A stretch of 64,000 bases of DNA. Origin: Rhizophagus irregularis (Eukaryota > Glomeromycota > Glomeromycetes > Glomerales > Glomeraceae). The notes beneath the pieces were generated by a model. The model searched no databases and was not told the origin of the DNA. It saw only the letters and a list, made by a program, of their open reading frames with translations. Below are positions 21,081 through 59,173 of this stretch, one piece after another. A program made the translations under genes and the position numbers. The DNA lies in the NCBI RefSeq assembly GCF_026210795.1, contig NC_089439.1, positions 2,294,001-2,358,000 of the forward strand, written 5' to 3'. How positions within the stretch are numbered: the stretch's first letter is position 1; the number at the start of each line of letters is the position of its first letter.

Positions 21081-21493
21081 ATGTCTCATAAACAAAGTTG
21101 AACGCATCCGTATATCCAAAAAATAAACTTTTATAATAGCAAATGAATTAGGAGAAACCCCCAAAAACTTTGTTATAATTGTGAAGAAACGATTGATTGC
21201 GTTAAATTAGTTTCCAACAAAGTAAATAAGATTGAGGAAATTGTGAATAATTTTAAAAACATTAAAAAGAAGCCTGAAAAGCTTTCTAAATTTAATGCAA
21301 AATTTACCTTAAATAATGTTCCCTGCGAATTGGAATACGACCTATCAAGTTTTACTTTAGAAAATCTACAAAAACTTGTTGCTATTACTACACAATTTAC
21401 AATCCTAATTCTCCCTCAAATAATTCTCCCTCGAGCAATTCTCCCTCAAGCAATTCTCCCTCAAGCGATGATGTTTCTGAATCATCTAACTGA
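21081..21493 (+). pseudogene. Family A copy A1: small CxxC protein, two in-frame TGA and one frameshift
   Basis: The frame starting ATGTCTCATAAA reads MSHKQS, TGA (21099), THPYIQKINFYNSK, TGA (21144), IRRNPQKLCYNCEETIDCVK, then LVSNKVNKIEEIVNNF, FNAKFTLNNVPCELEYDLSS, FTLENLQKLVAITTQ. A one-base shift then gives YNPNSPSNNSPSSNSPSSNS and a stop at 21491-21493. Both TGA codons align with Arg positions in related copies (QR, MRTRR), so each is explained by CGA to TGA. The tail comes from a 12-base repeat (AATTCTCCCTCA). Function unknown: one CxxC (LCYNC) could be half of a zinc site or a redox pair. Not translatable as it stands. Confidence 0.75.
21405..21466 (+). repeat. 12-base minisatellite in the A1 tail
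   Basis: About five copies of AATTCTCCCTCA/G encode a Ser/Pro/Asn tail in one frame and Leu/Pro/Ile in another. The inverted copy lacks this segment altogether. Confidence 0.8.
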
Positions 21494-21495
21494 AA

Positions 21496-22056
21496 ATAAA
21501 TACGAAACTTTTATTATTCTAATCTTTACAAATTAAATAATTAGCAAAATCTTTCTTTTGCTATTTTTAACAATTTATCGTTATTATATTTTCGTTTCAA
21601 ATTTATTTTTTTTAGTTATTACCGTAAAAAAAAGCCAGAATTAATATTTTGTGTATATTTTTAAAGAAAATTTATAATATTAATAGTTAAAAATGTCAAT
21701 AGAAAAAGGAGTGGAACCAATGAAATTGAACAGAGATCAAAGAATATTTACTCCGTGAAATAAAAATACAGATCTGCAATACGAAAAAAATTTTAAAAAT
21801 AGTTTGTTGTGATTGAAAAAAAAAATGAGATAGCCGAATCATTTTCGACATATACATAAACAATTTCGATAATCTACATAACGTGAAATTTTTATCATAG
21901 TATCTTAAATAATTTCTTAATAAACCTTAATTCATAAGATTTGTGTTTGTGATAAATTATTTGAAAATATTTTTTCTAATTGCCCGAGAGTCGATTTTGC
22001 CTTGATAAATTAACAGTGATTATTACGATATTTAGAATATGAACTATATTTTTGAA
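21496..22056. other. A2 3' flank and gene-free stretch
   Basis: Contains the segment CCCGAGAGTCGATTTTGCC near 21983, which matches in reverse complement the 3' flanks of family A copies A5 (about 44420) and A6 (about 53085). It is therefore the conserved 3' UTR of A2, read on the minus strand. No other gene. Confidence 0.55.
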
Positions 22057-22317
22057 TTAATTATGTAGGTTTCTAAAGATGTATTCTAATTCGTTGCTTA
22101 AATTAAATTTTGCATTGAAGATAGAAAATTGATTAACCTTATTCTGTTTTATGGGATTTTTATGAAAATTGTCAATGACTTCTTCTATTTTATCGCAGTC
22201 GTTCGTTTCCTTACAGTCTGGACAAAGTTTTTGAGATTTTCTCCTAGTTCTCATGTTACTTAAATTGTTTTTTTGAACATATGGAGTTCTTTGTTCGTGA
22301 TCATTTTTTGATGACAT
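22057..22317 (-). CDS. Family A copy A2: small CxxC protein, C-terminally shortened
   Basis: An uninterrupted 86-aa frame starts MSSKNDHEQRTPYVQKNNLS, then MRTRRKSQKLCPDCKETNDC, DKIEEVIDNFHKNPIK, QFSIFNAKFNLSNELEYIFR and ends NLHN. Compared with the family it lacks the segment between the CxxC and the helix, and VPC plus LSNFTLE of the C-terminal block, both by in-frame or near in-frame deletions. It also has no Ser/Asn tail. It could still be expressed, but loss of the conserved core argues for decay. The protein is basic, with no signal peptide or membrane segment. It lies between the two inverted A1 arms on the minus strand and keeps a 3' flank shared with A5 and A6. Confidence 0.55.
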   Translation of the reverse strand: MSSKNDHEQRTPYVQKNNLSNMRTRRKSQKLCPDCKETNDCDKIEEVIDNFHKNPIKQNKVNQFSIFNAKFNLSNELEYIFRNLHN

Positions 22318-22539
22318 TATAAAACGATTATAATAATAACGATAAATTGTTGGTTACCCAAATCAAAATAGCGAAAAAACTAATCTCTTAAAAAGTTGTT
22401 TAAATAGAATACAACGAAAAAAGAGGCTTACATAATAAATAAACGAAGTAAAAAGTAAAATCAAAAAAAAAAATTTAGATTTTCAACGAGATTTTGCAAA
22501 GGTTATCCGAATGCAATGAGAAAGAATAGTGAAGTTTTG

Positions 22540-22956
22540 TATTTCACTTTTCAGTTAGATAAATTGTGTAGTAATAGCAACAAGTTTGCTAAAGTAAAAC
22601 TCGATAGGTCGTATTCCAATTCACAGGGAATATTATTTGAGTAAATTTTGCATTAAATTTAGAAAGCTTGTCAGGCTTCTTTTGAAGGTTTTTAAAATTA
22701 TTCACAATTTCCTCAATCTTATTTACTTTGTTGGAAACTAATTTAACGCAATCAATCGTTTCTTTACAATTATAACAAAGTTTTTGGGGTTTCTCCTAAT
22801 TCATTTGCTATTATAAAAGTTTATTTTTTGGATATACGGATGCGTTCAACTTTGTTTATGAGACATTTGATATTGCGAATAACGAAATAATTTATGCAAG
22901 TTTTTCATTGCAAATTCGAACCCTTTTTATAAAATTTTTTGATAAATTAAGCCATT

Positions 22957-22999
<43 letters not shown>

Positions 23000-23172
23000 A
23001 AAAAAGAATAATTATACTGTATAAGAATACGTATTTTTATCTTTTAAACATTGCATCAAATTACAATAAAATATCTTTTGTTTTCAATCATCAAAATCAG
23101 CAGTATTTACTTATCTGCGTTTTAAAATAATCAGAACCAAAAATTATTATTTTATTCAATTGGTCGTTCCCA
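22540..23172 (-). repeat. Inverted duplication, arm 2, carrying family A copy A1'
   Basis: Reverse complement of 20575-21495 without the MITE and without the A1 tail repeat. It includes a (TA)n run at 22962-22997 that is much longer than in arm 1. Confidence 0.85.
22551..22866 (-). pseudogene. Family A copy A1' (inverted duplicate of A1)
   Basis: Minus-strand reading from ATG at 22866 repeats A1 almost base for base. It has the same two TGA codons after MSHKQS and after NFYNSK, then RRNPQKLCYNCKETIDCVK, LVSNKVNKIEEIVNNFKN and KPDKLSKFNAKFT. It then has its own one-base deletion after FNAKFT, and lacks the sequence between ITTQF and the final stop. Shared nonsense codons mean A1 was already dead, or at least already mutated, when the block was duplicated. 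The private frameshift is later. Confidence 0.8.
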
Positions 23173-23392
23173 AATTTTAATTATGGAAGTATATTAACGT
23201 TTATCAACAAAGTAGCCACAACGTACAATGCAGGAGATTTTATTTTTAAAACTTCACGCAAACAAAAAAAACCGTAAAAAATTTGTTACACAGTATATTT
23301 TGATATATACTATAAGTTTTCTGAATCGAAAGGTCTGTTTCATTAATTTGGATATATTAATTCTCTAGTAAATTTTCCGATTATTTCAATTG
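23173..23392. other. Gene-free stretch
   Basis: AT-rich spacer between the inverted duplication and the next foldback element. Nothing supportable. Confidence 0.5.
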
Positions 23393-23815
23393 CCATTTTT
23401 GGTTTTGGGGCGTCTAAAGAGAGTAGTCACGTGATCATGGGAAAAACTCATTTTTTCGTAATATAACTATTTAACATATGCATGGCTTTTAAATTAACTT
23501 ATAGTAAGTGCATTTTAGCTTGCTCCGCAAGTTTACTTAGAGCACAAAACGAGGTTTTGAATACCGTTTTTGAGTTATTTGACTTTTTTTTCGTTAAAAT
23601 GAATCTAACCATTTTTGGATATGATCAGCAAATTTCATTCGTTCATATGTCAAAATTCACTTTTTTTCCCCTAAGTAAACTTGCAGAGCAGACTAAAATA
23701 CTTTATCTTATTATTTTCAAGTTCATATTAATCTTAGTTTGTAAAAAAATTGTCTAAACATATAATGTTAAAAATCACGTGACTACCCGCTTTAGACGGC
23801 CCGCAGAGCCAAAAT
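23393..23815. mobile_element. Foldback element (MITE) with about 40-base imperfect terminal inverted repeats
   Basis: GGGGCGTCTAAAG... AGTAGTCACGTGAT on the left mirrors ATCACGTGACTACC... CTTTAGACGGCCC on the right. A second, inner pair is nested inside: GCAAGTTTACTTAG (23529-23542) against CTAAGTAAACTTGC (23671-23684). The single long frame inside (23482-23757) just reads through the palindrome. No target duplication could be fixed. Confidence 0.7.
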
Positions 23816-24360
23816 CCCTATAAAAAAGAAATAACAAAAGGTCTTTTTTCTTCTTGTTTACGCCTGTTCTTTGATAACATGCCATATTCGAACAAGCATT
23901 ATTTAGATAAAAAAAGCTCCGAATTTTAGGTAACTAATGCAATGTTTGACAGTGTCTGAGAGAAAATTTTTTTAATTATGTAACACATTAAAGCTACATA
24001 ATCATTTATAATCAATTTTCATAAACTAAAATCGTGCAAGATAATCAGATCATATTTTCCATTCTTAATGGAATTAAACAATGAAAGATTTGATTATCTA
24101 AAGGCATGATTTTATCATGTGATCGGTGTAACATTTCTCGTGATTTTTTTTATTTTTTTCCATTATCTAAAAATAAAAAAAATAAAATACTGCTGCCGAA
24201 TCCTGCCGTCATTTATCCGTCTACTCCGGCACATGATTAACCTTTTTTTTTCAATATTTTAACCTAAATAACAAATATAGACCTTTATAATAATGCATCA
24301 TTCTATACATGACAGTATTTACGTATAGTGCCATTTGATGGTAAAAGAAAAATATAGGCT
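23816..24360. other. Gene-free stretch
   Basis: No open frame or terminal repeat recognised. Confidence 0.5.
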
Positions 24361-24606
24361 CCTAGTTTAGTTGGAATTCTTTTTTTTTTATATGTGTTCG
24401 CTTCTCTAGTTAGTTGGGTTTTTTACCTAGACTAATAGCGTAGTATCTATTTTTTCTAGTGTCTCCTATCAAAGGGTGGGTCTCGTGTCAGGGATCATTT
24501 TAAACTAGATAGTTTATTTTTGTATTAATTTGTACAAATTACTATTTTTGTAAATGACTTTGGTAACCAACCTTTTGGAAATAAAATAAATAAAAAAATA
24601 AAAGCC
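24361..24606 (+). repeat. Possible truncated retroelement 3' end
   Basis: Non-coding sequence rich in TAGT and GGGT words, ending in ACCAACCTTTTGGAAATAAA and an A-rich tail (AATAAATAAAAAAATAAAAG). This is the look of a LINE or SINE 3' end, but I could not pair a target duplication or match it to the LINE at 1-7050. Confidence 0.3.
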
Positions 24607-24661
24607 ATGTTATTTCGTACAAAAAAAAAAAAGTTCATTATTTTCATTCGTTTCTTTTACG

Positions 24662-25010
24662 ATGTCATCAAAAAATTATGAACCAAGAACAGGCGGAGTG
24701 CCGTATGTTCAAAAATTAAACTATGCAACAACAACAAAAAAACTACGAGAAAGCCAACAAAATTATGATCTAATTGTAAAGAGGAGAAAGATGGTGTTAG
24801 CTTATTTTCAAGTAAATCGGACTGAAGAGATCGCTAATACTGTAATTGTCATAAACATTCAAAAAAGAAGATCGAACAAATTTCTAAATTCAACACTAAA
24901 TTTACTTTAAATAACATACCTGTGAATTGGAATATGATTTATCAAATTTCACGTTAGAAAATTGGCGATTTTCACAACCCAAAATTGCGATAATAATAAT
25001 AGTTATAAAT
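24662..25010 (+). pseudogene. Family A copy A3, several frameshifts
   Basis: Starts MSSKNYEPRTGGVPYVQKLN, the best preserved N-terminus of the family. A frameshift then separates it from KPTKL, TGA, SNCKEEKDGVSLFSSK (the CxxC block, first Cys now a stop). Later shifts separate KIEQISKFNTKFTLNNIP from CELEYDLSNFTLEN and a short tail QNCDNNNSYK. At least three indels and one stop are needed to explain it. It lies just left of a TIR element whose end is about 35 bases away. Confidence 0.7.
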
Positions 25011-25044
25011 AAAGGTAAACATCCCTATTAAATAAAAAGAATTA

Positions 25045-25749
25045 AGTAAAGTAGTACTGTACAGTAATACAAATTCGGACGGACGTTAATCCTTTTTGTT
25101 CGTGTACGTTTCTAACAGATAAATGTTTTTATACTAGTACGTACGAATGCTTTAAAAATTTTCGTACGACTTTGAATTTTCGTACATGTTTTGTTTTTTA
25201 ATAAAATACTTCATGTTAAAAAATATAAATATATCATTTATACTCTTTGAAGATAAGCTTATAAATTTCTATTTCTTTAATAATTGTCAGCTCTATAATA
25301 ATAAAATTGACTAATTAAAAATAAAACTAAATTTTTTATTGATTTATTTAATAATTACTACAAATTCTTTATCATACTTTTTATTTTATATATAAATTAA
25401 TACAATCATATTTAGCATTAGCATTTGCAAAATATAATTTTGGCAGCATGTACAAATTACAAAAAAAATATACAGTACAAAGATTAAAAAGAGATATTTA
25501 TGACAAATACATAATAAACAAAACGTTAAAATCATTACATTACAAAATATATAAATTAATCAGATCAATTATGTTACTCAAATATTATGTAATTGTAACA
25601 TTTTCATTCTCGAAAGTTCTATCACATGATGCTACGATGTAAAATTATTAGTACGGAAAATCAAATTTTACTTTTAATAGTCCGTCTGAGTACGGAAAAA
25701 TTAAAAAATTTTTTTCGAACGTCTTATTACCGTACAGTACTAGTTTACT
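25045..25749. mobile_element. TIR element, 25-base imperfect terminal inverted repeat
   Basis: AGTAAAGTAGTACTGTACAG at 25045 faces its near-complement ending at 25749 (reverse complement AGTAAACTAGTACTGTACGG). Only two mismatches occur in the 25-base TIR. The 705-bp interior is AT-rich with repeated GTACG/GTACGAA words near both ends, the usual subterminal repeat pattern of a non-autonomous element. The open frame at 25448-25642 shows no domain. Confidence 0.65.
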
Positions 25750-25865
25750 AGATGAGTTATGTACAAAAATGTCGGAATCTTGACATCTTATAATCAAATT
25801 TCATTTATATAACTCAGAATTGCTGTAATATAATGTAACTCATAATCAAAATAAGTTTTTTAATC

Positions 25866-27720: not shown

Positions 27721-27990
27721 TTAATAAGGAAACGAAGACGAGGAAGGGAAACTCGCGGGTAAAATATGCTCGAAATCATTGGCACCATTAAAATCAGTGC
27801 CATTAAAAAAAGTGTGCACAAAATAATTATCGCTGGGTTGCGGTACAATTCGTGCGATTTGGTCCAAAGTTTTGGTATTATTGATCAAGCGAGGTCTTGA
27901 TCTATTTACTATATTATTTGCATTATTCGCATTATTTGCATTAAAACGCGACGTATCGCGTATCCTATTTTCATAGTTTTCTGACGACAT
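27721..27990 (-). CDS. Family B copy B1: small Asn/Arg-rich protein, intact
   Basis: 89 aa: MSSENYENRIRDTSRFNANN, then ANN repeats, RSRPRLINNTKTLDQIARIV, PQPSDNYFVHTFFNGTDFNG, NDFEHILPASFPSSSSFPY. The frame is uninterrupted, starts at ATG 27990 and ends TAA at 27721. Features shared with B2 and B3 are an Arg/Asn-rich basic N-terminal third with NANN triplets, the TLDxIARI helix-like segment, FFNGTxF, and FExxLPxxxxPSSS at the end. There is no signal peptide, membrane segment or Cys. The function is unknown and I recognise no domain. The start MSSxNY resembles the start of family A (MSSKNYEP), which may reflect a shared first exon or promoter region. Confidence 0.65.
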   Translation of the reverse strand: MSSENYENRIRDTSRFNANNANNANNIVNRSRPRLINNTKTLDQIARIVPQPSDNYFVHTFFNGTDFNGANDFEHILPASFPSSSSFPY

Positions 27991-30460: not shown

Positions 30461-30463
30461 TGT

Positions 30464-32690: not shown

Positions 32691-33038
32691 ATGTCAACAT
32701 CAAGAAATACTAATAGACAAAGAAGTTATAATCGAAGAACTTCGAGAAATACTAATCGATTAAGAAGTCATAATCGAAGAACACGCGGGGCACCCCGTCT
32801 TATAAATATGACAAATAATGCAAATAATATAAACAGAAATATCAATCGCATTTTGCGAATTCGGCTTTTAAATAATGCTGATACAATTAATCGAATTGTT
32901 CAAATCAATACGCCGCAAATTATGAATAATACTCTGTGGAGTAATTTCTTTAACGGGACAACCTTCGATAGTAGCAACAATTTCGAATCTTTGATCTTAC
33001 CTTCGGGATGTTTTCCTACTTCATCGTTTATTATTTGA
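32691..33038 (+). CDS. Family B copy B2: small Asn/Arg-rich protein with N-terminal duplication, intact
   Basis: 115 aa from ATG 32691 to a stop at 33036-33038. The N-terminus contains two tandem 14-residue units, SRNTNRQRSYNRRT and SRNTNRLRSHNRRT, which explain its extra length over B1 and B3. Then come RGAPRLINMTNNANN, INRNINRILRIRLLNNADTI, NRIVQINTPQIMNN, FFNGTTFDSSNNFESLILPS and GCFPTSSFII. The first half is strongly basic (many Arg), which could suit nucleic-acid binding; that is inference only. It has the same C-terminal FFNGTxF...FESLILPxGxxPxSS motif as B1 and B3. No signal peptide is seen. It is on the plus strand, whereas the other three copies are on the minus strand. Confidence 0.7.
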   Translation: MSTSRNTNRQRSYNRRTSRNTNRLRSHNRRTRGAPRLINMTNNANNINRNINRILRIRLLNNADTINRIVQINTPQIMNNTLWSNFFNGTTFDSSNNFESLILPSGCFPTSSFII

Positions 33039-34522: not shown

Positions 34523-34792
34523 TTAGGGAAACAACGAAGAAGGTAAACATCCCGCTGGCAAAATTAAAGACTCAAAATTACTGGTATCATTAAAATTTGT
34601 TCCGTTAAAAAAAGCTTGCTCAAAAGGATTATGAGTAATTTGTGGTTCGATAATTCTGGCGATGCGGTCGAGAGTATTAGTATTATTTGTTAGACGAATT
34701 CGTGAAATACGATTTCGATTTATATTATTTGCATTATTTGCATTAAATCGCTTCGTCCTATGTATTCTTCGTCTATAATTTCTTGGTGGCAT
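34523..34792 (-). CDS. Family B copy B3: small Asn/Arg-rich protein, intact
   Basis: 89 aa: MPPRNYRRRIHRTKRFNANN, ANNINRNRISRIRLTNNTN, TLDRIARIIEPQITHNPFEQ, AFFNGTNFNDTSNFESLILP, AGCLPSSLFP. The frame is uninterrupted from ATG 34792 to the stop at 34523. It is the same length as B1 and aligns with it throughout, including the NANNANN core and TLDRIARI. Conservation of the frame and of the C-terminal motif between B1, B2 and B3, despite synonymous-looking differences, is the best argument that this is a real gene family. Function unknown. Its 3' flank is shared with B1, so the two belong to one duplication lineage. Confidence 0.7.
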   Translation of the reverse strand: MPPRNYRRRIHRTKRFNANNANNINRNRISRIRLTNNTNTLDRIARIIEPQITHNPFEQAFFNGTNFNDTSNFESLILPAGCLPSSLFP

Positions 34793-38418: not shown

Positions 38419-38419
38419 A

Positions 38420-38615
38420 TAAGAGGAGCACGATGTCGGACAAAATCCCGACATCCATTTTCCCGACAGGACGTTTGCCCGACACCGTTGGTCTTACATT
38501 AGTTTTAATGCTGGTCAAAGTTGTCGGGAAAATGTCCTGTCGGGAAATCGTCTGTCGGGAAATCGTCTGTCGGAAAATCGTCTGTCGGGAAATCGTCTGT
38601 CGGGAAATCGTGGTG
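38420..38615. repeat. CCCGACAGG inverted repeat with 15-base tandem repeat
   Basis: Left: ATTTTCCCGACAGGAC near 38456. Right: GTCGGGAAAATGTCCTGTCGGGAAAT-type sequence from 38522, followed by about five tandem copies of CGTCTGTCGGGAAAT to about 38610. The two sides are reverse complements, so this is probably a small foldback transposon whose right end expanded as a minisatellite. Similar TCCCGACA words fill the element at 57499-57915. Open frames on both strands here are products of the 15-base period. Confidence 0.65.
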
Positions 38616-39861: not shown

Positions 39862-40104
39862 AAATACTACTTTTTATTTAAGCTTTTTAGTTGCAATTGC
39901 ATATATAAGATCGGCTTCTTTTGCTTTGAAACACAATGATAAAATTGTAAGTTTTACGGTTTGGCTGAAAATTTTTAATAGGATCAGTTCATTGTGAATA
40001 AAGATCGAAACATAGATTTTTTTTGTTTTGTCATATTTGATTCGTATTGATCAACCAATAAAATTTAATCATATTTTTTATATTATTTTTCAAAATAAAC
40101 TATA

Positions 40105-40278
40105 ATGCACCATGTGAAGTGGACTATGATCTACCAAAATTCAAATTAGAGAATTTACAAAAATTAGTAATTTTTACGACACAAAATTGCGATAATAGTA
40201 ACGGAAATAATAAATATCCATCTTCTATATATTCTAAATCTTTTATCCCTTCCTCTTCTACATCTTCTAACGACTAAA
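40105..40278 (+). pseudogene. Family A copy A4, C-terminal half only
   Basis: Plus strand reads NAPCEVDYDLPKFKLENLQK, LVIFTTQNCDNSNGNNKYPS, SIYSKSFIPSSSTSSND and a stop at 40276-40278. This is the conserved C-terminal block (PCELEYDLSxFxLENLQKLV) plus the Ser-rich tail, without any N-terminal part upstream. The matching N-terminal half is found inverted 230 bases downstream (40510-40740). An inversion breakpoint inside the gene would explain this; the same split exists in the duplicate at 47.8-48.2 kb. No start codon is available. Confidence 0.7.
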
Positions 40279-40504
40279 ATCTCTCGAAATTCTATTATAC
40301 ATCGAAAACTTCAGGTTTATTATATACATAAAAATTATTTTATCGAAAAAAAACATGGTTTTGATACTAAATTACCGACATTTTGGAAAATATTTTTTAC
40401 CTTTTTTCACAAACATAAATTATTATTTAGATTTTATTATAAGATATAATAATTAAACTTTAATATATTTATATATACTATATATTGTATTATTTGTATA
40501 TGCG

Positions 40505-40742
40505 TTAAAAGTAGAAATTTGTTGAATGTTCTTTTTAGGTAAATTCGTGTAAAAGTTGTTAACGATCTCTTCTATTTTATTTACTTTACTAGAAAAAATT
40601 TTAACACAATCACTTGTCTCTTTACAGTCAGGACATAGCTTGGGAGGTTTTCTCCTAACGCTCCTATTGTTATTGCTGTTAAGAACGATTTTCTGAACTT
40701 ATGGAGGCGTCCCGCATGTCCTTATTTTGTTTGAAATATCTT
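40505..40742 (-). pseudogene. Family A copy A4', N-terminal half only, inverted relative to A4
   Basis: Minus strand reads SNKIRTCGTPP, stop (TAA for Tyr), VQKIVLNSNNNRSVRRKPPK, LCPDCKETSDCVKIFSSKVN, KIEEIVNNFYTNLPKKNIQQ, ISTFNA and then leaves the family sequence. The expected ATG is ATT here. It carries the PPYxQK, CxxC and helix segments and stops exactly where A4 begins, so A4 and A4' together make one gene cut by inversion. Confidence 0.7.
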
Positions 40743-43600: not shown

Positions 43601-44400
43601 ATGTCGTTAAACTGAAAAATTATGAACAAAAAACTTGCGGAACGCCACCATATGTTCAAAATATCTGTTTCGAAAATAATGCTTGCAAGATAATAAAAGA
43701 AAGTAAAACTCCAAAGGTTTGCTCTGATTGTAAAGAAATGAGCGATTCTGTCAAAAATCATTATAATAAAGCAAATAAAACAGAAGAAGTAATTGACGAT
43801 TTTTATAAAAATCCCATAAGAAAGAGTAAGATTAATCAATTTTCTATCTTCAATGCAAGATTTACCTTAAACAATGTCTCTTTGCGAATTATAATACGAT
43901 TTATCAAAATTTCTTTAAAAAAATTACATAAATTAATACAGTCTGACCTCGATATAACGAACCCACGATATAACGAACTCTTGACTTACCGAACTTTTTT
44001 TTAAAAACCGGGTTCATATTATTTAAAAAAATCTCGATATACCGAATTTCATATAAACTCGATATAACGTATACCGAACTTTTATGATTTACCGTTTATA
44101 ATAAAGCATATAAAAAAAATTCTTTATATACCGAACTTGATCACGTGGTTGAAATTTCACATAATTTATACTGTTAAATCTTAATTTCTGGCCAAAATTA
44201 ATATTCTTTAATCACGTGATAACTTTATATACCGAACTGCTACTGTAAAACTTATGGAGTTCGGTACACAAAAAAAATTTACATACCGAACTTCTACTAT
44301 ATAACGAACTTTTGCCCTTGAACCGCGAGTTCGTTATATCGAGGTTTGACTGTAATTTTTCGACTCAACATTGCAATACTATCTCTAATGACAATCGTTG
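43601..44400 (+). pseudogene. Family A copy A5, interrupted by a pogo-like MITE
   Basis: ATGTCGTTAAACTGA carries five extra bases compared with A6 and shifts the frame at once. Beyond it the family frame reads NYEQKTCGTPPYVQNICFEN, NACKIIKESKTPKVCSDCKE, MSDSVKNHYNKANKTEEVID, DFYKNPIRKSKINQFSIFNA, RFTLNNV. A one-base insertion and a GAA to TAA change follow in the CELEY block. Right after the LHKL segment the element at 43939-44352 is inserted at TA; on its far side STQHCNTISNDNR resumes the tail. At least four lesions, so not functional. Its sister A6 lacks the insertion. Confidence 0.75.
43939..44352. mobile_element. Pogo/Tc1-mariner-like MITE, TA target site, inside A5
   Basis: CAGTCTGACCTCGATATAAC on the left and, reverse-complemented, CAGTCAAACCTCGATATAAC on the right, both bordered by TA. 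These are classic pogo-type termini. The interior is built from many copies of ATATAACGAAC and TATACCGAAC in both orientations and has no coding capacity. It contains two CACGTG sites. Confidence 0.88.
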
Positions 44401-45281: not shown

Positions 45282-45703
45282 TCAATAACTAAAGAAACTT
45301 AAACTTTTTTCTAACAGATACGTCGATAGGAACGACAAATAATGATCTGAAAGTTCAACAGATAAATTTGAAGAATCGAATTTATTATCGTTGTTAAAAC
45401 TTTGCCCATTAAAAAAATTGTTTACGAAAGGATTAGTTTAGTATTTGTAATTTGTGGTGTAGAAATACGGAAGATTCGGTTAATTTCCCACCAAAAGAGG
45501 ATTGAAAAGTTATTGGTGAATATCGCGCAAATAACCATAGAGTATTATTACAGGTTTATTATAATTTTGATCTCGTTTATAATTGATTTCATCCAATGAT
45601 TTTTTCTCTTTAGACCAACATTATCAATCAAACATATCCATAAGGCACAGTTGTGGTTTCGTGACGTTCCACGCGTTCTTCGCACAAAATTTCTTGGTAA
45701 CAT
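45282..45703 (-). pseudogene. Family B copy B4, degenerate
   Basis: Minus strand opens MLPRNFVRRTRGTSRNHNCA from ATG 45703, loses frame through KRDQNYNKPVIILYG, and later shows RIFRISTPQITNTKLI, then in another frame VNNFFNGQSFNNDNKFDSSN and LSVELSDHYLSFLS to a stop near 45282. The RIxRI...PQI...NNFFNGxxFNNxNxF pattern is that of B1-B3. Stops and frameshifts in the middle make it a pseudogene. Confidence 0.6.
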
Positions 45704-47205
45704 TGGAGTAAAAAATAGTTGTTTCTCTTCCTTTACTAATGTAATGTTAAGTTTTTGAGTAAACTTACAAAAGGACTAGATAAGAACCTAGCATTATAAT
45801 AATTCTAGCAACTCTATTCAAAAACTACAAAATGACAATTTTCATTTATTCAATTATAAACACAAAAACGTTAATTATAACAGAGAAATGGATATGGTGA
45901 TTAGAGAATATTCTTTGGAAAGACTTCTTGTGAAAAATAATTCGAAAAATCGACTAATATTATAGCTTTGATGATTTTATTCACAAATTAATCTTTTATC
46001 ATCTTTTAAAGTATCTCATCCAAATAAATAGCGAAATACCATCAAAGAATTCCTTTTTTCATTTTAATTATAAAAAAAAACAACATAAATCGCTATGATA
46101 AACTAATAACATAATCTATACCGTTTATCTAACGATTCCCGTTAGTAATACAATTTATGCTGTGAGTTAGAGTATTTCAGAGATCTACAAATCGAAAAAA
46201 TTTCACATTATTATTAATTAAAGACATGAAAAAAAGAAATGAAGAAATTTAAAAATAAATGGATAAACGAGAAAGAATATAGTGGAAACAATAAGAATAT
46301 AATGGAAACAATAGTGAACAAGAAAAACAGCATGAACAATAGAAAAAACGTTTGAATTATATAAAACTATTTTTAGTGAACATTTTAACAATTGCTTATA
46401 ATAAATAGTATCATATTCTTGTATAAATTAGAAGCAATTTTGTTGATTTCAAAAGGTCATATTTATTCAAATATATTTAATTAAAACATACAGTCTTAGA
46501 CTTGCGTCAGGGTCTTTAAAAATCAAAAAATCCTTAATGTTACAATTGTTACATGTTTAAGGACTCCATCATATAAAGAGATTTCTTATTAATTTATATA
46601 TGAGAAGAATATTACCACTAAAAAAATTATGATTATGAAAGGCTTATAAATAACATAATACTTGTAATAGCTGAACTAAATTACGATTATTTATTTTAAA
46701 ATATTTTTTAATAGATGCAAAATTCCAAGTATGATCTGAAAACCAATCTAATTAAAAAAAATTTTTTTTTTTCTAGAAGCAATTTCTATTTGTACGTGTT
46801 TCCAAATTTTTATGCCAATCATTTAATGCTGGCCGGAATTAAATTTAACGGAAAAAAAAGATTCGTCTTAGACACTTTAACAGTTAAACAGTTGAGTATA
46901 AAACTTACAGAACAGGCAAAATACACTTACTGTAAATATTTTTTTTTTAAGATACTGTACTTGTTTTTTTTACATTATCAGTTATTTTCTGTTGATGAAA
47001 ACGCCCGTGTATATTAAGAAATCTTCTTATCTTAATTAGTATTAAATCAAAGCAACAATTTCTTTTAGATACATTACAACATTGCGTCATTGTTGATGTT
47101 GATCATTTGTCATTAAATTCGCCTTTTAGTTTTACTTTTGAGAACATTATACTATTTGAGGTTTGTTTAACGTAGTGCAAATGATTAACATGATGATAAA
47201 TCGAC
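45704..47205. other. Gene-free stretch
   Basis: AT-rich. A small local duplication of GAATATAGTGGAAACAATA lies near 46275. The 100-codon frame at 46715-47017 has no domain and biased AT-type composition. Confidence 0.5.
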
Positions 47206-48384
47206 TAAATACTTTTTATTTAAGCTTTTACTTTTTTATTAACTTTAAAACACATAAAAAGTTTCAATTTATTTTTAATTTAATTTTTAATAGGATCAGT
47301 TCATTGTTATTGGAATAAAGATCGAAACATATCTCCGTGTACGCTTACATCAGGAAATTTTTTATGTGTAGAAAATATGCAAAATTTCGTGCATGAAAAG
47401 ACTGATTTGCACACCCTGAAAATGCACATTATTTTCATATTTTCTATGTGATATATTGTAAAAAATTTGTACAAAAAATTACATCTATAATATTGTTAAC
47501 TATATTGCATAAATTTTGAGAAATTTAAGTGTTTGTGCAATATTGAATACCCTAAAAATTTGGTTTAGTAAACTAAACCGGATGAAATTTTTACGAAATC
47601 CGTTTGTTTAAAGTTTTGGCTTTTTTTTTTGTTTTGTCGCAGAGTAATCAGATCGTATTGATGATCAACCAATAAAAATTTAATCATATTTTTTATATTA
47701 TTTTTCATATAAATCTTAAAAAACTATATCTTATAATAAAGTAATGAAATAATAAATATCCATCTTCTATATATTCTAAATCTTCTATCCCTTCTGCCTC
47801 TTCTACATCTTCTAACGATTGAAATCTCTCGGAATTCTATTATACATCGAAAACTTCAAGTTTATTATATATCAAAAAAAAAAAATTTATCGAAAAAAAA
47901 ACACAGTTTTGATATTTCTAAATTACCGACATTTTAGAAAATATTTTTTACTTTTTTCACAAACACAAATTATTATTAAGATTACTAAAATTACTAATTT
48001 TAAAGCAAACTTGCGTTAAAAGTAGAAATTTGTTGAATATAAAGTTGTTAACGATCTCTTCTATTTTATTTATTTTACTAGAAAAAATTTTAACTTAATC
48101 ACTTGTCTCTTTACAGTCAGGACATAGCTTGGGAGGTTTTCTCCTAACTCTCCTATTGTTATTGCTGTTAAGAACGATTTTCTGAATATATGGAGGCGTC
48201 CCGCGTGTCCTTATTTTGTTTGACATATTTTGCAAATAACGAGTTGCAATTTATTGAAGTATTTTATTTTTTATTTTTTGTTTTTTTTTTGTTTTTTGTT
48301 TTTTCTCTTAGTGCATAAGGTTAATCGGTTTTTTAAAAAATTACATTCATCAAAGAAAATTTCAGTGATTTAAATATATAATCG
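47206..48384 (+). repeat. Direct segmental duplication II, copy 2 (partner 39862-40885)
   Basis: Same order of landmarks as copy 1. About 280 additional bases at 47335-47620 have no counterpart in copy 1, which gives an empty site for that insertion. The plus-strand family A C-terminal half is shorter here (only AATAAATATCCATCTTCTAT onward, ending at the stop near 47821). Confidence 0.85.
48020..48226 (-). pseudogene. Family A copy A7, N-terminal half only, inverted
   Basis: ATG is present at 48226: MSNKIRTRGTPPYIQKIVLN, SNNNRRVRRKPPKLCPDCKE, TSD, TAA, VKIFSSKINKIEEIVNNF, then frame is lost near QQISTFNA. It is the duplicate of A4' and retains the start codon that A4' lost, while gaining a stop where A4' has Cys. 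Each copy therefore decayed independently after duplication. Confidence 0.7.
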
Positions 48385-50770: not shown

Positions 50771-50773
50771 TAA

Positions 50774-52520: not shown

Positions 52521-53440
52521 ATGAATGGCATTTTAAAATGAATAACAAGTTATTAAAAACTCGGATGTTTTATATCTCCATCTATTTAATTATCTAAATC
52601 GGTAAATTGCCGAAAAATAATAATGTCAAAAAAAAAAAATAAATAGATAAACTTATATAAGTCCTAGCAACCCACAGTTATATTTAATAATCAATAAGTT
52701 TCAAATTTTTGATTCCTTTTTTATACTTCGTTATAATGCCATTAAAAAATTATGGACAAAAAACTTGCGGAACGCCACCATATGTTCAAAATATCTGTTT
52801 CGAAAATAATGCTTGCAAGATAATAAAAGAAAGTAAAACTCCAAAGGTTTGCTCTGATTGTAAAGAAATGAGCGATTCTGTCAAACTTATTTCTAGTAAA
52901 ACAAGTAAAACAGAAGAAGTAATTGACGATTTTTATAAAAATCCCATAAGAAAGAGTAAGATTAATCAATTTTCTATCTTCGATGCAAAATTTATTTTAA
53001 ACAATGTCCCTCGCGAATTAGAATACGATTTATCAAATTTATTTAGAAAATTTACATAAATTGGTAATTTTTAATGAAATGTTTAGCAAAATCGACTCTC
53101 GAACAATTAGAAAAATATTCTTTCCAAATAATTTATCACAAACACAATTTATTTTATACATTAAGATTTATTAAGAAATTATTTAAGACACTTGAAATTT
53201 ATGGACAATATTATTACGTTATAAAATCATTTTTGTAATTATTACATGATATATAAGCAACCATTTACTCCTTTTTTATTAGACAAATAATAAATTTATA
53301 TTATTATGATATATATGAATAAATGTGTTTTTTAACATTTGGCACTAGTTTTTGATGGTCTAATTTCATCATCTTTGATAATTTAACTTATTACTATCTT
53401 TTTGCACTCAATAAGCATTAATAACTGCTTGATATACTTT
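52521..53440 (+). repeat. Direct segmental duplication III, copy 2 (partner 43379-44765)
   Basis: As described for copy 1; this copy lacks the pogo-like MITE and so shows the empty TA site (ACATAAATTGGTAATTTTT). Confidence 0.88.
52736..53059 (+). CDS. Family A copy A6: small CxxC protein, C-terminus truncated by frameshift
   Basis: From ATG 52736, 107 aa: MPLKNYGQKTCGTPPYVQNI, CFENNACKIIKESKTPKVCS, DCKEMSDSVKLISSKTSKTE, EVIDDFYKNPIRKSKINQFS, IFDAKFILNNVPRELEYDLS, NLFRKFT. I prefer this start to the in-frame ATG at 52709 because it matches the M-x-x-K/R-N-Y start of related copies. All family blocks are present up to ELEYDLS. A small deletion then shifts the frame, so LENLHKLVIF is lost and the protein ends early; the conserved Cys of VPCE is Arg. 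There are no stops in 300 bases, so it may still be made. Function unknown. Confidence 0.6.
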   Translation: MPLKNYGQKTCGTPPYVQNICFENNACKIIKESKTPKVCSDCKEMSDSVKLISSKTSKTEEVIDDFYKNPIRKSKINQFSIFDAKFILNNVPRELEYDLSNLFRKFT

Positions 53441-55250
53441 CCTTAACCCTAACTTCACGTAATTTACAACCAAGTTTTATTTGACGAAATAATATTCAGG
53501 GCCCGGAAAAGTACGTCTCTCTCAGTGTATAAGGAAAAATTTACTATTAGCTCGGTCAAGGCCGGAATTATAGTAATGCCGGCCAGCTAGTTTTTTGACT
53601 AGAATTATCAAGAATTATCCATCTAAGGAAAGATCTACGTAATTGCTGCTATAGCCGGGTTCGGCAAACGGCGAGATCTGAACGAACCTAAATACTTATG
53701 AGTTGCAAGCATCACAACAAAAATCATAAAGATTAAAAATCTAATTTTTACTAATAAATTTGAAATCTCACCAGCATTTTAAAATTTCTTGTTCAAATCG
53801 GATTTTAAGGTATTTGGAAAGGAAAGTGTTATGTTTTATTTTTTTTTTTCATCATTTAATTGATTTAAGAAATGTTTCTAATAATGTTTCTATTTTTTGT
53901 ATTAGGGACATAATTTAGACTTAGCGGTTAGGTAAATAAAGAAAAATTATGTAAATGGGAAAGGGATAGTAAATTATTTTTCATTTTCATTTCGTTTTGC
54001 TAATCTTGATTTACTGTAATAAGAAAAGGTTACGGTACGATTTCCTGGCTGCTATTTTCCCGAATATAACTTCTCTAGAAGTCAATTACCTGAATGCCAA
54101 TTTCTTGAACTGGACATTAATCATGCTAAATAAATTTCCATTCATTATTAGAGGAAAAAAAAAATCAAAATTTTTAACTTTTTTTTATATTGTTTCTTTA
54201 TTAAACATTATATAATGTGTAAAAATCAAATAAATGGATTTTAATTAAACCTTTATATTATTTATTAATATAAGCAAGTCTTTAATAAATTTTTTATTAA
54301 ATTGAGAATCAAAGATTTTAGGACTTTACCAATAATTTATATTATAACATTACAGAATTTGTTTTTACATTGTAAGACCTAAGCTCGCGATAAATCACGT
54401 TGCCACCTTAGGACTTAACAAAATAATACAATAATATGCTTGGTTTAATAATACTAAATAATAACTAAATATTTATCCAAATAATTTCACAAATCCTTTT
54501 CCACAATGTTGATATTTGCGGCTATTTATATGAATCTATACATAGTACCGTAACGAAACTTCTGCGGCTTTTAACACTATGTTTTACTGCAAAAACCTAA
54601 AATATCCTATCTCATATAACTTCATACTTCATACGAACTACAAGTATTAGTCATATTTTTGAAATTTTCATTTTCCTTCGTTTTTGACCTTCAAAACCAT
54701 TTCCAAATATGTAAATATTCTAATAATAGATTCTTTCATCATGATCTACAAATTAATCATCTGATTTCCTAAATCATCTGACTCAAATCTTTCATCCCGA
54801 ACGTATAAACCTTAATCATCTGATTCATAGTTTAACGTCATCGCGGACCATAATCCTTTAATCCTTTGTTTGGTAGTTTAACGTCATTCCGGACCAATTA
54901 AAATACAATTTTAAAACTAAAAATTTATACACTAACTCTAAATATAATACTGCGCCTCATAATTAATAAATTTACTAGGTAAACTACGGCATTACAACAG
55001 GCCGATCAATTTTCTTGGTTTTTTTTAAAAAAAATATTTTTTAAAAAACAAATTTAATTTTAATTGACATAATATTTTTAATTCCGACGCTATAGAATGA
55101 TTTTCATTTGATCAGCAAAATCTAAAGCAAGCTAATAATCTCCATGATTAAATATTTATTTATTTATTACATAGAGAAACAAGATCAAAATAGACCATTT
55201 AATTTTACGAAGGATTCTAGTCCTTTATGTAATTTGAGGATCTAAAAACA
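53441..55250. other. Gene-free stretch with small repeats
   Basis: Holds the recurrent GGCCGGAATTATAGTAATGC motif at 53551 and a local duplication of AGTTTAACGTCATYSCGGAC near 54831 and 54887. AATCATCTGATT recurs near 54756 and 54813. No coding sequence recognised. Confidence 0.5.
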
Positions 55251-55712
55251 TTATTGCCGTTTTCAGAAATGTTGACATTAGAATGTCGATCATTTCTATA
55301 AATCGAACACACCGAACACACACCGAACACAGCAATTAAAATTAAAAAAAAACAAATTTTCCTTTAAAAAAAGCAAAATTAAAACTTTAGTAATCTATTT
55401 TTAGGTAGTGTGCATAAAAAAATGTATAAAAATTATATTATTTGCATATATGTATTCACTTGTATTTGCTTGTATTTGCCAATGTTCGGTGTGTTCGGTG
55501 TGTTCGTTTGTGTTCGGTGTGTGTTCGGTACAAATTTTCATATTTTCAATTTTATTCATATCTAAAAAGTGACAAAAATAGTTTTTATATAAAGTTATGC
55601 ATGAATACTTCAAGTTTGCATAATTTTTTGTATGTGTTCACGGTGTGTTCGGTGTGTTCGGTATAAAATGGTCAAAATTTCAGATTGTCAACATTTCTGA
55701 AAACGGCAATAA
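55251..55712. mobile_element. Foldback element with 27-base perfect terminal repeat and GTGTTCG subterminal repeats
   Basis: TTATTGCCGTTTTCAGAAAT begins at 55251 and its complement ends at 55712, a 27-base perfect TIR. Just inside are clustered CGAACACACCGAACACAC words on the left and GTGTTCGGTGTGTTCG words on the right and centre. Interior frames (55401-55613 minus, 55442-55666 plus) read through the repeat and are not genes. Confidence 0.8.
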
Positions 55713-56259
55713 ATCATGATGGGCATACCATGGGCTATTTTGTAAATGTAACCGGAGGTCCAACGAATCTACTATTATGTGAAGGGTAGCGTTTGGTTTT
55801 TGTAGGCACGTCAAGTAGTGTAAGGTGTGATGGCCATTTTTATTCGTTTTAATCCTTTTTCTTCATACGCCGATTAATATTGCATCTTTCCCCCATTGAA
55901 TAACTGTGAGTGTTCTAAATAATTTTTTTAATTCATTCCGCGAAAATTTTGTAACATGTAATGGTCACGTGATGAAACATCTGAAAAAAAAAAATAGAGT
56001 TGAAGATCGATAATCTACTATCTATTGTATGAATAAATCAAAGGGCTTTAGGTGCAGCTTTATTTACAAAGTATGTTTTCTATCCGGTTAACGCTGAAGT
56101 GATTTGATGTCTACATCCGGAAAAATTATCTTGAACTTGCATGCGCACACGATCATCCTCCCATTATTCGCAATCAGGTCTAGACCCTAGCAATAGAAGT
56201 TCGAATATTTAGCAATATTCCTGAATAATTTCCATCCAATTTTCAATCCCATCAGATTA
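55713..56259. other. Gene-free stretch
   Basis: Moderately less AT-rich toward the right; no frame supported. Confidence 0.45.
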
Positions 56260-56398
56260 CCTGTGCCCTAATGGGTCTAGTGCTCGCTTGGCTCATCAAA
56301 GACTTGAAGCATTAGGCAAACCCAAAGATCACATGTGCCCTAGCACTAGTTTTTGGCTCAACACGAAGACTTGAATGATAGAAGAACCCAAAGATCAT
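56260..56398 (+). repeat. Tandem duplication of about 70 bases
   Basis: Two copies of a unit with RTGTGCCCTA at the start, AAGACTTGAA in the middle and ACCCAAAGATC at the end (56260-56332 and 56333-56398). They lie in the 3' flank of the minus-strand remnant that follows. Confidence 0.8.
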
Positions 56399-56646
56399 CT
56401 ACATGCCATTCTCTATATTCTTATTAGTAAAACTAGTAAACCTAATACCTGCCTCCTTATACTTATCAAAGAGATTTTGCGCTTTTTCACATCTTTGACT
56501 TGTCTCAGTGCTCTTAATCCTCTTGAGAGAACAAAGGTAGCATACTGTTATTTGTTGAAACGGCTCCAGCTCACATGCGTTAAGGAATCCATTCTGATGT
56601 TCTTTTTTCGAAGTATTCGTGCAGTACTCTATTAGAAGACATTTAC
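56399..56646 (-). pseudogene. Terminal exon or fragment of an unrecognised gene
   Basis: On the minus strand an uninterrupted frame without a start reads RKCLLIEYCTNTSKKEHQNG, FLNACELEPFQQITVCYLCS, LKRIKSTETSQRCEKAQNLF, DKYKEAGIRFTSFTNKNIEN, GM and TAG at 56399-56401. It is preceded by a TTTTTTTTTTTAG acceptor-like tract, so it may be a last exon of about 82 codons. The composition (Cys, Glu, Gln, Trp-free, varied) is protein-like and less AT-driven than other frames. CYLC could be part of a metal site. The upstream exon is not recognisable. Family unknown. Confidence 0.45.
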
Positions 56647-56811
56647 GTCTAAAAAAAAAATAGTGAAAAAATCATATGATATCCTTTTTTCTAAGGCACT
56701 TCCGTTTTGTGGGCGTGGCGGGCACGTCATATAAACAACACGAATCCGCAATCACGTGATCGGGTTATACCTTAGACATCACGAGCATCCTTATCCTGGA
56801 TGCTGGCAACA

Positions 56812-56964
56812 CCCGGAGGGTGAGGTCCTTTAGATATGATCTTAGATCTAGTTTACGGGATTTTTAACCACAGCACTCTTAATTGTATAGTTATTCACTA
56901 GTAATAGTTGTTTACTTCTTTTATGTACTTGTCATTGGTTACTCCTCTCTGAAATAAAAAAAAA
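56812..56964 (+). mobile_element. Short retroposon (SINE-like or 5'-truncated LINE) with 15-bp target duplication
   Basis: TGGATGCTGGCAACA occurs at 56797-56811 and again at 56965-56979, bordering a 153-bp insert that starts CCCGGAGGGTGAGG and ends GAAATAAAAAAAAA. A long target duplication plus an A-rich 3' tail is the signature of target-primed reverse transcription. The insert is non-coding. I see no clear tRNA-like head, so a truncated LINE 3' end is as likely as a SINE. Confidence 0.8.
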
Positions 56965-56979
56965 TGGATGCTGGCAACA

Positions 56980-57489
56980 ATTAAAATTAGTTATTGATAT
57001 AATGAAATTCTAAATTTCGTATTTTGAAATGGATAAGAACTATGAAACAATATATTAATTTATATTTTTTTTTTATCTTCATGCCTACTGTACAAAAGTA
57101 TGCAACTAACCTTTTTTTTTATTAATAACACGTATTTCATTAATCTAGTTTTTATTTGTAATATATACTTTTGTCGTTTTTAAAAAAATATGCATTCATA
57201 ATGTATTACATTACTGAATACTAGTATGATCAGGTAATAAGCAGAATAAATGTGTAAATAGCATATTAAAGCTATGACTAGTTATCGAACGATAATAATA
57301 AATAATTTATCTTGTAGTTTGTGAAAATAAAATTTATTATCGACCTTTAAATATTACTGACTCTTTGGTCAATTAGTAATGTAAGAATGCTAATTTACAA
57401 TTAACAAAGCATGCTTAACTAAGATTCAAACACAAGCATGCTCCAATATTTATCAATTATGCTTTTAAAGCATTTTCAACTTTTTAATG
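56980..57489. other. Gene-free stretch
   Basis: AT-rich spacer; nothing supported. Confidence 0.5.
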
Positions 57490-57498
57490 TCTCCAATT

Positions 57499-57915
57499 GG
57501 GTTTACCACAAAATCCTGACAACCATAAAATCGACAGCCGACACTAAGATCCCGACAAACCCAAATCCCGTTGAAATAAAATCCCGATAGTCACAAATTC
57601 TGACAGTTAAAAATCTTAAATCCAAAAGTTTTTTTTTTAAAAAAAAAATTTATAAATTTTCCATAATTTTAAAAATGCAGTGACGCAATAACGGGTTAAT
57701 TTATTCTAGTTAAAAGGATTATGTACAGTATATTACTAGATTACTAAACTGTTCCTTATCTTCTAAAATTAGAAATAATTGCATTAAAATCAAGTAATCT
57801 CAAATTCATCTGATCGATAATCGTGATTCTGTAATTGTCAGGATTTTGATTCAATTGGGATTTGCATTTATCGGGATTTTGAATATTATGGATGTCAGGA
57901 TTTTTGGGTGATCCC
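57499..57915. mobile_element. MULE-like MITE with 9-bp target duplication and TCCCGACA subterminal repeats
   Basis: TCTCCAATT at 57490-57498 and 57916-57924 is a perfect 9-bp duplication. Termini GGGTTTACCACAAAATCCTG and, reverse-complemented, GGGATCACCCAAAAATCCTG continue for about 30 bases. Inside each end lie several AAAATCCCGAYA words in inverted order. Non-coding; the 64-codon minus frame at 57756-57950 runs through the right end. Confidence 0.85.
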
Positions 57916-57924
57916 TCTCCAATT

Positions 57925-58675
57925 ACAATTATCGTAGATTCATAGAACATTGGTATTTATATTTGTTAGATTGATGTAAAAACTTCATAATATACAAAAT
58001 CTAAGCAAGTTAAATAATTTTCATAATTTGATTAGGAAATATTCTACATTACGGACGGGAAAAACAGAAATTTATTGAGCAAATTTACATTAATAGTATA
58101 TTGTTTACATCGAATTTAAATTAGTCAAACTTAGGTCAAACAAATTAACGTCCCCAAGTTAATTAAATGATATCTAACAATCCGCTTTATGACACATTTT
58201 GCCAATAAAGGTAGTAACTGGAAAATCATCCTAAGGCCATGTCATGTCTCAACAAAGAATCTAGTAAAAATTGTAATAAAAAAAAAGGAGAAATAACAAC
58301 AGATTGAATTTGTTATTCATCAGATGAATTTTCAATCCCTATGAAAAAAGAATTCCAGAATTTTGTTCTCATTGACCAGCGGAATCTCTCCCATTTCGTA
58401 CATTTTCCGGATATCACTTTTCTTTTGTTCTTATTATATCATATTGTGTATTAAGAAAATTCTTGATTTCAAGAGAAAAACCATTACTCATCACCTTATC
58501 TCAAATGATGTCAATATTTACAAATATTAAATAATAAACAAAAAAAACTCCTAAATAGGCAAAAGCATGTGGATCTACGATTCCTAATTTGGAAATTTTC
58601 TATTAATAAAATTTTTAAAAATAACGATAAACTAAATGACGTTAGGGATTATTTATAATTAATTTTTAATTATTT
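57925..58675. other. Gene-free stretch upstream of A8
   Basis: AT-rich; no feature recognised. Confidence 0.5.
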
Positions 58676-59173
58676 ATGCAATACAGAAAAAAACGGAATT
58701 ATGAAAAATTATTTAAAGGCTTTTTTTCTGTTTTTAACCTTTTAACCTCACCATACATATGTTATAAGCTTAATAAGTTTTCAATGTCATATATACGAAA
58801 AATTGATTTATGTAATGATAACAAGAGAACTAGGAATAAAAAAAATTCACTAGTATGCCCTAGTTGTATCGAAACCAATGATTATTTTAACCTATTTTCT
58901 AAAAAAATAAATCAAATCGAAGAAATTGTCGATAAACTTCGTAAAAATTCAAATCTTCCATCAAAAAAGGCAGATCAATTCTCAATATTTAACGCAAAAT
59001 TTACTCTAAATAATGTACCATGCGAATTAGAATACAATCTGTCAAAATTTTCTTTAGAAGATTTACAAAAACTCGTAATTGTTACGACTCCAAATTGCAA
59101 TAATAAATATCCATCTTCTAATACAAGTAATGAAAGTGATAGCTCTGAATATTCAAATAATGAGAGCCCTTAA
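58676..59173 (+). CDS. Family A copy A8: small CxxC protein, intact
   Basis: The only copy whose frame is open through every family block: NSLVCPSCIETNDYFNLFSK, KINQIEEIVDKLRKNSNLPS, ADQFSIFNAKFTLNNVPCEL, EYNLSKFSLEDLQKLVIVTT, PNCNNKYPSSNTSNESDSSE and a stop at 59171-59173. The whole frame has 165 aa from ATG 58676. An internal ATG at 58784 (MSYIRKIDL) would give 129 aa and lies where others have PYVQK, so the true start is uncertain. The tail is Ser/Asn-rich and acidic. No signal peptide or membrane segment is convincing, although the longer form has a hydrophobic stretch (FFSVFNLL). One CxxC plus the Cys in VPCE are the only conserved cysteines. Function unknown. Confidence 0.72.
   Translation: MQYRKKRNYEKLFKGFFSVFNLLTSPYICYKLNKFSMSYIRKIDLCNDNKRTRNKKNSLVCPSCIETNDYFNLFSKKINQIEEIVDKLRKNSNLPSKKADQFSIFNAKFTLNNVPCELEYNLSKFSLEDLQKLVIVTTPNCNNKYPSSNTSNESDSSEYSNNESP

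Follow-up and report, generated by a model that had tools for sequence, protein, structure and literature searches.

What kind of gene leaves about nine partly broken copies of itself in 38 kb of a fungal chromosome? The question is raised by a 64,000-nucleotide stretch of the Rhizophagus irregularis genome (contig C11, NC_089439.1, positions 2294001-2358000), referred to below as the window. A first-pass annotation, made from the letters of the window alone, described nine places that share an ordered set of protein blocks, here called family A. Searching the window by tblastn with 20 family A proteins, that of the copy A8 included, we found ten matching stretches, each hit by 20/20 queries, with best expectation (E) values from 1.6e-23 to 2e-81, the latter being A8 matching itself. 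All nine places were recovered, and the one listed at 40105/40505 proved to be two pieces on opposite strands. Our answer, to which we give an even chance, is that family A is an intronless, locally multiplying, fast-turnover branch of a family of small basic CxxC/coiled-coil proteins, and that its members may act as small dimeric nuclear adaptors or regulators.

Extent of family A and selection on its members

We searched the whole genome (146,748,485 bases in 32 contigs) for further copies; match counts from these searches are lower bounds. With A8 as query and an E limit of 0.001 there were at least 87 matches, merging to 73 loci, and two other family queries gave at least 120 and at least 139 with the limit set at 1. 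C11 makes up 3.6% of the genome and holds 63 of the 73 loci. The first-pass annotation had proposed local birth and death of copies, and the distribution agrees with it: 56 of the 73 loci fall within 0.42 Mb of C11 (1,959,005-2,382,231), the gaps between them having a median of 4.2 kb, and nine of these 56 sit in a single array stretch. The majority of family A copies thus lie outside the window.

Sequences were retrieved for every one of the 73 loci save a 28-residue match at C11:2110911, and we scanned for reading frames in the window and in 97 of 103 retrieved loci, leaving out five repeats and L055, which overlaps L018. The scan returned 20 full-length frames with a start codon (A8 and 19 others), three nearly full-length frames without one, and 80 partial frames, with several per locus and the exons of distant relatives counted in. 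All 20 intact genes are intronless and 112-143 codons long. Seventeen belong to the main C11 cluster, and C2, C16 and C28 carry one each. In a tree, these three dispersed genes nest in C11 clades with bootstrap values of 95-100, the deeper branches being mostly poorly resolved; because of this nesting, the dispersed copies likely stem from the C11 cluster. Words enriched upstream of the genes above mononucleotide shuffles were A-rich and AT-rich ones only. We also looked for a shared promoter motif and found only a weak candidate, TATAWA, present in 9/20 genes at -100 to -50 against 1-7 across nine other bins. Two further frames, L048 984-1136 + (near a family B gene on C11; see below) and L091 338-658 - (on C5), match the A profile with E values of 2.5e-5 and 5.4e-5 and are probably A fragments.

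The intact genes evolve as proteins. We estimated nonsynonymous and synonymous divergence (dN and dS) by the Nei-Gojobori method (NG86), taking a pair as usable if dS was defined and below 2. Among the 190 pairs of the 20 genes, 136 were usable, dN was below dS in every one of them, and the median dN/dS was 0.22; the Yang-Nielsen method (YN00) gave a median of 0.33 over 90 pairs. Since gene pairs share ancestry and dS is near saturation, these values are descriptive, with a uniform direction. Compared by region as proportions of differing sites (pN/pS), the ratio is 0.53 in the basic N-terminus, 0.27 in the CxxC, 0.38 in the helix, 0.52 in the linker, 0.11 in the hairpin block, 0.23 in the second helix and 0.68 in the tail, so that the hairpin block is the most constrained region and the tail the least. 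We conclude that intact family A members are under purifying selection. The first-pass annotation had asked for such a comparison and would have given up the family at a dN/dS of about 1 with no other open copy; the ratios are far below 1 and 19 further copies are intact. Chance open frames are rejected because of the dN/dS values and the 20 conserved full-length frames.

We compared the family with known domains by searching Pfam with 21 members and seven exon pieces, NCBIfam with the 21 members, and PDB by profile in two runs. Curated cut-offs were applied to A8 and to singly searched proteins, and the remaining members of the alignment were judged by E value only. No relative in Pfam, NCBIfam or PDB was convincing, and no cut-off was reached where one was applied, in keeping with the earlier statement that the family is unrecognised. 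Weak matches were scattered among families. The best in NCBIfam was to pyrrolysine--tRNA ligase (E 4.9e-5, 3/21 members) and the best in Pfam to DUF4080 (E 0.0016, 1/21 members); one distant relative matched a viral nonstructural protein at E 0.00094 (19.1 bits, below the cut-off of 27.2), and the best PDB values were 0.27 and 0.57. We read these matches as composition effects. One pattern scan of bacterial and archaeal genome contigs and one of viral contigs, with other fungi outside their scope, gave 12 and 43 candidates, none of which was confirmed, and an origin from these groups found no support. We found no description of family A in the literature, as far as titles and the beginnings of abstracts tell. 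The young-gene clusters of R. irregularis (PMC10234402) resemble it as lineage-restricted genes grouped in special regions; the sections of that paper considered here name no family built in this way and are silent about the region.

Layout, relatives and a possible dimer

Family A proteins begin with MSSxNYxxRTxxxPYVQKI and a Lys/Arg patch, followed by the CxxC, an amphipathic helix and a Lys/Asn linker; the C-terminal part consists of SIFNAKFTLNNVPCELEYDLS, then FTLENLQKLVIFTTQNC, then a variable Ser/Asn tail. The 16 residues preceding the CxxC contain 4-8 Lys or Arg in the 20 proteins. Four distant relatives were found with two other members as queries, at genome-search E values that are partly weak (0.003 and 4.3e-5 with one query, 0.12 to 0.79 with the other). 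Two of them, used as queries in turn, link the relatives mutually and to A copies at E values of 3e-7 to 2e-4 and weaker. Their order is a longer, partly low-complexity N-terminus, the CxxC, the helix, the end of the frame, and the LQKLV block. The conserved pieces thus lie in two frames, which a GT-AG intron soon after the helix would join; candidates exist in 4/4 relatives, and the best-scoring or chosen ones measure 85-111 nt and lie 4-13 residues past the helix. Run against 824 frames, the A profile matched the first pieces of 4/4 relatives (E 1e-9 to 3e-8) and the second pieces (L..LQKLV helix) of the C11 pair (E 1.6e-5 and 0.0038), and it matched no reversed frame at E up to 10. By eye, the N-terminus of one C11 relative (EQIRGSNCSRVQRIKL) also resembles that of the family A gene L005 (YGSRTCGKPYVQKIKL). 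The intact A genes read through the intron position without an intron. We read family A as an intronless branch of a family shared with these four likely intron-bearing relatives, which suggests where it came from; the difference in introns may be the trace of an old retrocopy.

We next consider the CxxC and the helix behind it, counting positions in 24 proteins (the 20 intact ones and the four relatives) by raw spacing from the first Cys, gaps ignored. The CxxC keeps a fixed register with a three-heptad helix in all 24, the C8 and C11:0.6 Mb genes together with A. Positions 10, 13, 17, 20 and 24 are hydrophobic in 24/24 and position 27 in 23/24; the second Cys of the CxxC occupies an a position; and Lys or Arg at g16 and Glu at e21, each in 24/24, make a g-e' charge pair. 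At the level of sequence these are the features of a parallel dimeric coiled coil, namely heptads with hydrophobic a and d positions and opposite charges at g and e'. As a small control we took 44 CxxC windows from frames without an A-profile hit: the six hydrophobic positions occurred in one of them, and together with the K/E pair in none.

From these features we propose that the CxxC would cap a short parallel coiled coil, bringing two chains together, whose four cysteines might jointly bind a single zinc or make a redox pair. The Lys/Arg patch ahead of the CxxC may be a sign of nuclear location, or of a partner that is acidic or a nucleic acid, and the strongly conserved hairpin and LQKLV helix would be the end that binds a partner. 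The protein would then be a small nuclear adaptor or regulator that works as a dimer, perhaps a heterodimer. Its genes would be copied by duplication at the DNA level, most copies decaying afterwards.

Several observations weigh against parts of this proposal. Because c12 and g23 are also hydrophobic (in 22/24 and 23/24), a different oligomer, or packing within one chain, is possible. The CxxC by itself may bind nothing, and a nuclear location is inferred from charge alone. An AlphaFold model of A8, built from an alignment with eight window sequences, has a mean predicted local distance difference test (pLDDT) score of 45; it puts a helix at residues 32-54, the same place as the heptads, and as a low-confidence model it proves nothing. 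The median dS among intact genes, 1.36, is close to saturation. For the relatives, at C8:1.650 several possible introns of 77-179 nt score alike or nearly so; in the C8 pair, the second pieces went unmatched by the A profile in the 824 frames and are alike by eye only; and the tree sets A apart from the four relatives with support of 94/87, below the mark for strong support, the relatives being long branches that meet.

The cysteines also bear on a different idea, in which the CxxC and the Cys of the VPC motif act within one chain as a redox or metal-handling monomer, for instance as a buffer for copper or zinc. The first-pass annotation had argued that a metal site would need either dimerisation or this Cys, from its VPCE. 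Dimerisation gains indirect support from the register of CxxC and heptads, and the VPCE route comes out weaker. The CxxC is present in 24/24 proteins and the VPC Cys, counting IPC and IQC, in 19/20 intact A proteins (L020 lacks it), but none of the four relatives has a Cys at that place (two have one a few residues later, in DLTRC and DLSTC), and beyond the CxxC no third or fourth ligand is invariant. We consider the monomer unlikely. Zn2Cys6 and classical zinc fingers, which require four or six ligands per chain, were rejected, as only the CxxC is invariant and the Pfam matches of A8 stayed below cut-off.

Two known coiled-coil systems offer partial parallels. In bZIP proteins a basic region is joined to a coiled coil, and in the Rad50 zinc hook a CxxC lies at the turn between two long helices. 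Family A resembles bZIP in that a short heptad helix with g-e charge pairing comes after a basic patch; it differs in having the CxxC in between, a short basic patch and only about three heptads, and we rejected bZIP, which was not among the matches listed (25 of the 31 Pfam families that 21 members hit with E no higher than 1). It shares with the Rad50 hook one CxxC per chain beside a coiled coil, such that a four-Cys site needs two chains. However, family A has a single short helix, after the CxxC, the segment before the CxxC is basic and Asn-rich, and no Rad50 entry appeared among the PDB matches; a hook of Rad50 type was therefore rejected. An HMG box was likewise absent from the Pfam matches listed, and against a profile of four HMG boxes from this genome family A reached an hhalign probability of 0.1%, so that candidate was dropped as well.

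Small proteins with a Cys pair, encoded in a cluster with fast turnover of copies, could also be effectors, secreted or delivered to the host and acting in the plant. Judged by hydropathy alone, all 20 intact proteins lack a signal-peptide-like or strongly hydrophobic start: within the first 42 residues the highest mean over 12 residues is below zero in 15/20 and reaches at most 0.83 (L017), and the highest 19-residue mean anywhere is 0.52. These values speak against secreted effectors of the signal-peptide type and are compatible with unconventional export. The core, moreover, is strongly constrained (hairpin pN/pS 0.11) rather than fast, and we regard an effector family as quite improbable.

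Turnover of the cluster and family B

Copies of family A appear to have been made as DNA. Stretches of 0.27-0.71 kb are shared among the window copies at 70-93% identity, with differing limits. Between C11 and C16, L008 and L011 share collinear pieces that extend to 1.16 kb ahead of the start and 0.3-0.4 kb beyond the end of the gene; between C11 and C28, L004 and L009 have matching pieces some 0.6 kb upstream and at 0.6-1.3 kb downstream. Given this shared flanking DNA, copying between C11 and C16 was DNA duplication; dispersal by retroposition is excluded for this pair and unlikely for C11 and C28.

A recurrent product of this copying is the form represented by A2. The first-pass annotation had rightly called A2 open and shortened; it is no one-off, and represents a subtype of about 85 residues that lacks part of the helix. 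A piece of L016 type adjoins the subtype repeatedly (window 22561-22866/21979-22317, L032, L036, L052, L055). Across ten places examined, eight keep the frame over most of its length; the start is missing in L056 and L060 and reads ATA in L052. The pooled dN/dS of eight copies is 0.47 (column bootstrap 0.28-0.87), a value pushed downward by the picking of open copies, and the subtype is likely under some constraint.

At the other extreme, family A coding sequence forms tandem arrays at C11:2.113-2.118 Mb, with units of 127 bp (five copies, twice) and 383 bp (7.8 copies), which are not divisible by three and cannot hold a frame. This is a gene becoming a satellite. Such arrays, and the many broken copies, are what one would expect if all of family A were a by-product of repeats or mobile elements, gene-like pieces spread as satellites without protein function. 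Against this stand the 20 open genes, with median dN/dS of 0.22-0.33, and duplicated stretches that vary in their limits, unlike the fixed ends of an element (no systematic search for transposases or terminal repeats was made). We hold this the least probable of the explanations weighed here.

Quick local birth and loss of genes alongside conserved cores would also suit a recognition or conflict system, in which pairing preferences of paralogues mark nuclei or strains, or members antagonise each other. A coiled coil has room for pairing codes, and the shortened subtype is somewhat constrained though part of its helix is missing. Yet the proteins have no membrane part, and the core positions of the helix are conserved rather than hypervariable; we would give such a system little credence.

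The cluster also houses a second family, B, with 35 genome matches (loci L041-L051 and L069-L083). Its long forms, of about 150-180 residues, lie on C12, C21, C2 and C11:0.4-0.5 Mb, and its short forms, of about 90-115 residues, are interleaved with A at C11:2.0-2.5 Mb; the C-terminal end is near FFNGTxFxDxxSFESLILPAG. Descent of A and B from one ancestor over the full length was not supported (hhalign probability of A against long B 0.2%). Several short B genes (L048, L050, L069, L071) nevertheless share their first 21 or so coding bases, nearly unchanged, with many A genes, and the families have no similarity elsewhere; beyond this start block, comparison of A and B upstream regions gave low-complexity matches only. 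With at most one mismatch the 21-base block occurs at 19 genome sites, all assigned by position to starts of A (14) or B (5), with C11:2122134 counted as a weak A remnant (E 0.04) and L067 as a B remnant by eye. With at most two mismatches there were 49 matches, against five for the reversed pattern, and several of these sites, seven on C4 among them, are in neither A nor B as far as seen. A matrix built from 16/20 A starts (A8, L002, L003 and L016, in which the block is lacking or shortened, were omitted) scored four B starts outside the window at 28.8, 27.3, 24.6 and 13.5, the maximum of 1816 control ATGs being 13.0. The block was absent from seven long B genes inspected. The simplest reading is that short B genes are chimeric, with an A-type start, which suggests a gene-start fusion inside the C11 cluster.

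Seven longer B forms gave no Pfam match above cut-off. One stretch of long B, IWNS..LTxSQRxxFxxLANNAN, looks HMG-like, and hhalign aligns the expected region (P 0.035, probability 1.5%); we claim no kinship. HMG boxes form an expanded family in Rhizophagus, and the genome has at least 150 matches. In the window, an open frame at 45548-45775 - begins with MLPRNFVRRTRGTSR, an A/B-like start before a different body, and its start-block score of 9.1 is below the control maximum.

Features of the window and what the family offers

The copies in the window and the related features are collected in the table. A8, which begins at ATG 58784 with an N-terminus shorter than that of its relatives, has the CxxC, heptad helix, hairpin block, LQKLV helix and Ser/Asn tail; it alone among the frames of the window combines full length with a start codon and is thus the one intact copy, as the first-pass annotation had it. 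That annotation had also called A6 open but shortened; it does have one long open frame, though without the usual ATG, and departs from the family frame within the hairpin block. Its view that the rest are pseudogenes applies to all copies but A8 and perhaps A2 (open from ATG 22317 to a stop at 22057-22059). In A1, stops lie early in the frame and a frameshift precedes the tail. The two A5 pieces carry complementary parts on opposite strands, which fits a single copy split by an inversion; the 710-bp stretch that holds the N-terminal half is 83% identical to that holding A9.

Coordinates of families A and B; plain positions are those of the window
Feature	Position	Strand	Remarks
A1	21081..21476	+	pseudogene; nearest L016, 79.5% protein identity
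A2	21979..22317	-	shortened subtype; 86 residues, MSSKNDHEQR...
A3	22561..22866	-	pseudogene; 93.4% DNA identity to A1 across 320 bp, inverted orientation
A4	24662..25028	+	pseudogene with frameshift; nearest L008
Family B short gene	27724..27990	-	body unrelated to A; A-like start block, score 22.7
Family B short gene	32691..33035	+	start block not common with A, score 0.8
Family B short gene	34526..34792	-	weaker start-block match, score 17.2
A5, C-terminal half	40104..40277	+	NAPCEV... to tail; tblastn stretch 40104-40250
A5, N-terminal half	40435..40737	-	carries start to FNA
A6	43606..43965	+	long open frame without usual ATG; 88.8% identity to A7 over 511 bp
A9	48032..48226	-	N-terminal fragment, stop inside; nearest L003
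A7	52736..53056	+	open across hairpin; frame lost where LQKLV helix starts
A8	58784..59173	+	intact; 129 aa and stop; tblastn stretch 58763-59170
Distant relatives of family A	C8:1.650, C8:1.653, C11:0.589, C11:0.620 Mb		found with two other member queries
Tandem arrays of family A coding sequence	L021 512-1145, 1969-4951, 4824-5463 (C11:2112800-2118800)		

Four other features of the window were seen. At 1231-6751 + there are frames resembling a long interspersed nuclear element (LINE), an endonuclease-like piece and then a 1365-codon open frame that looks, by eye, like a reverse transcriptase. A protein-kinase-like gene lies across two frames at 12847-14419 +, the first with Cys pairs (KCDECNKRRK...ICHVCYK; by eye). 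A weak HMG-box fragment with an internal stop (19319-19417 -, E 8.2e-4) is close to an open frame at 19568-19900 -. Finally, a 15-bp tandem repeat of 5.9 copies at 38522-38611 has a repeat peptide readable in frames on both strands.

What had been pseudogene-like pieces is now a defined family whose 20 intact members can be put to the test, with four distant relatives, an evident arrangement of domains and strong evidence for selection at the level of the protein. It provides a compact case, in arbuscular mycorrhizal fungi, of the birth, copying, shortening and perhaps fusion of new genes within one chromosome region. As a long shot, the C11 cluster might generate pairing-competent nuclear coiled-coil proteins whose paralogues heterodimerise by way of the coil capped with CxxC, whose short copies block dominantly and whose combinations differ by nucleus or strain; if this were true, those combinations would amount to a rapidly evolving code for regulation or recognition in a symbiont that is coenocytic and multinucleate. 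Family A also offers an entry to what small CxxC/coiled-coil proteins do in arbuscular mycorrhizal fungi.

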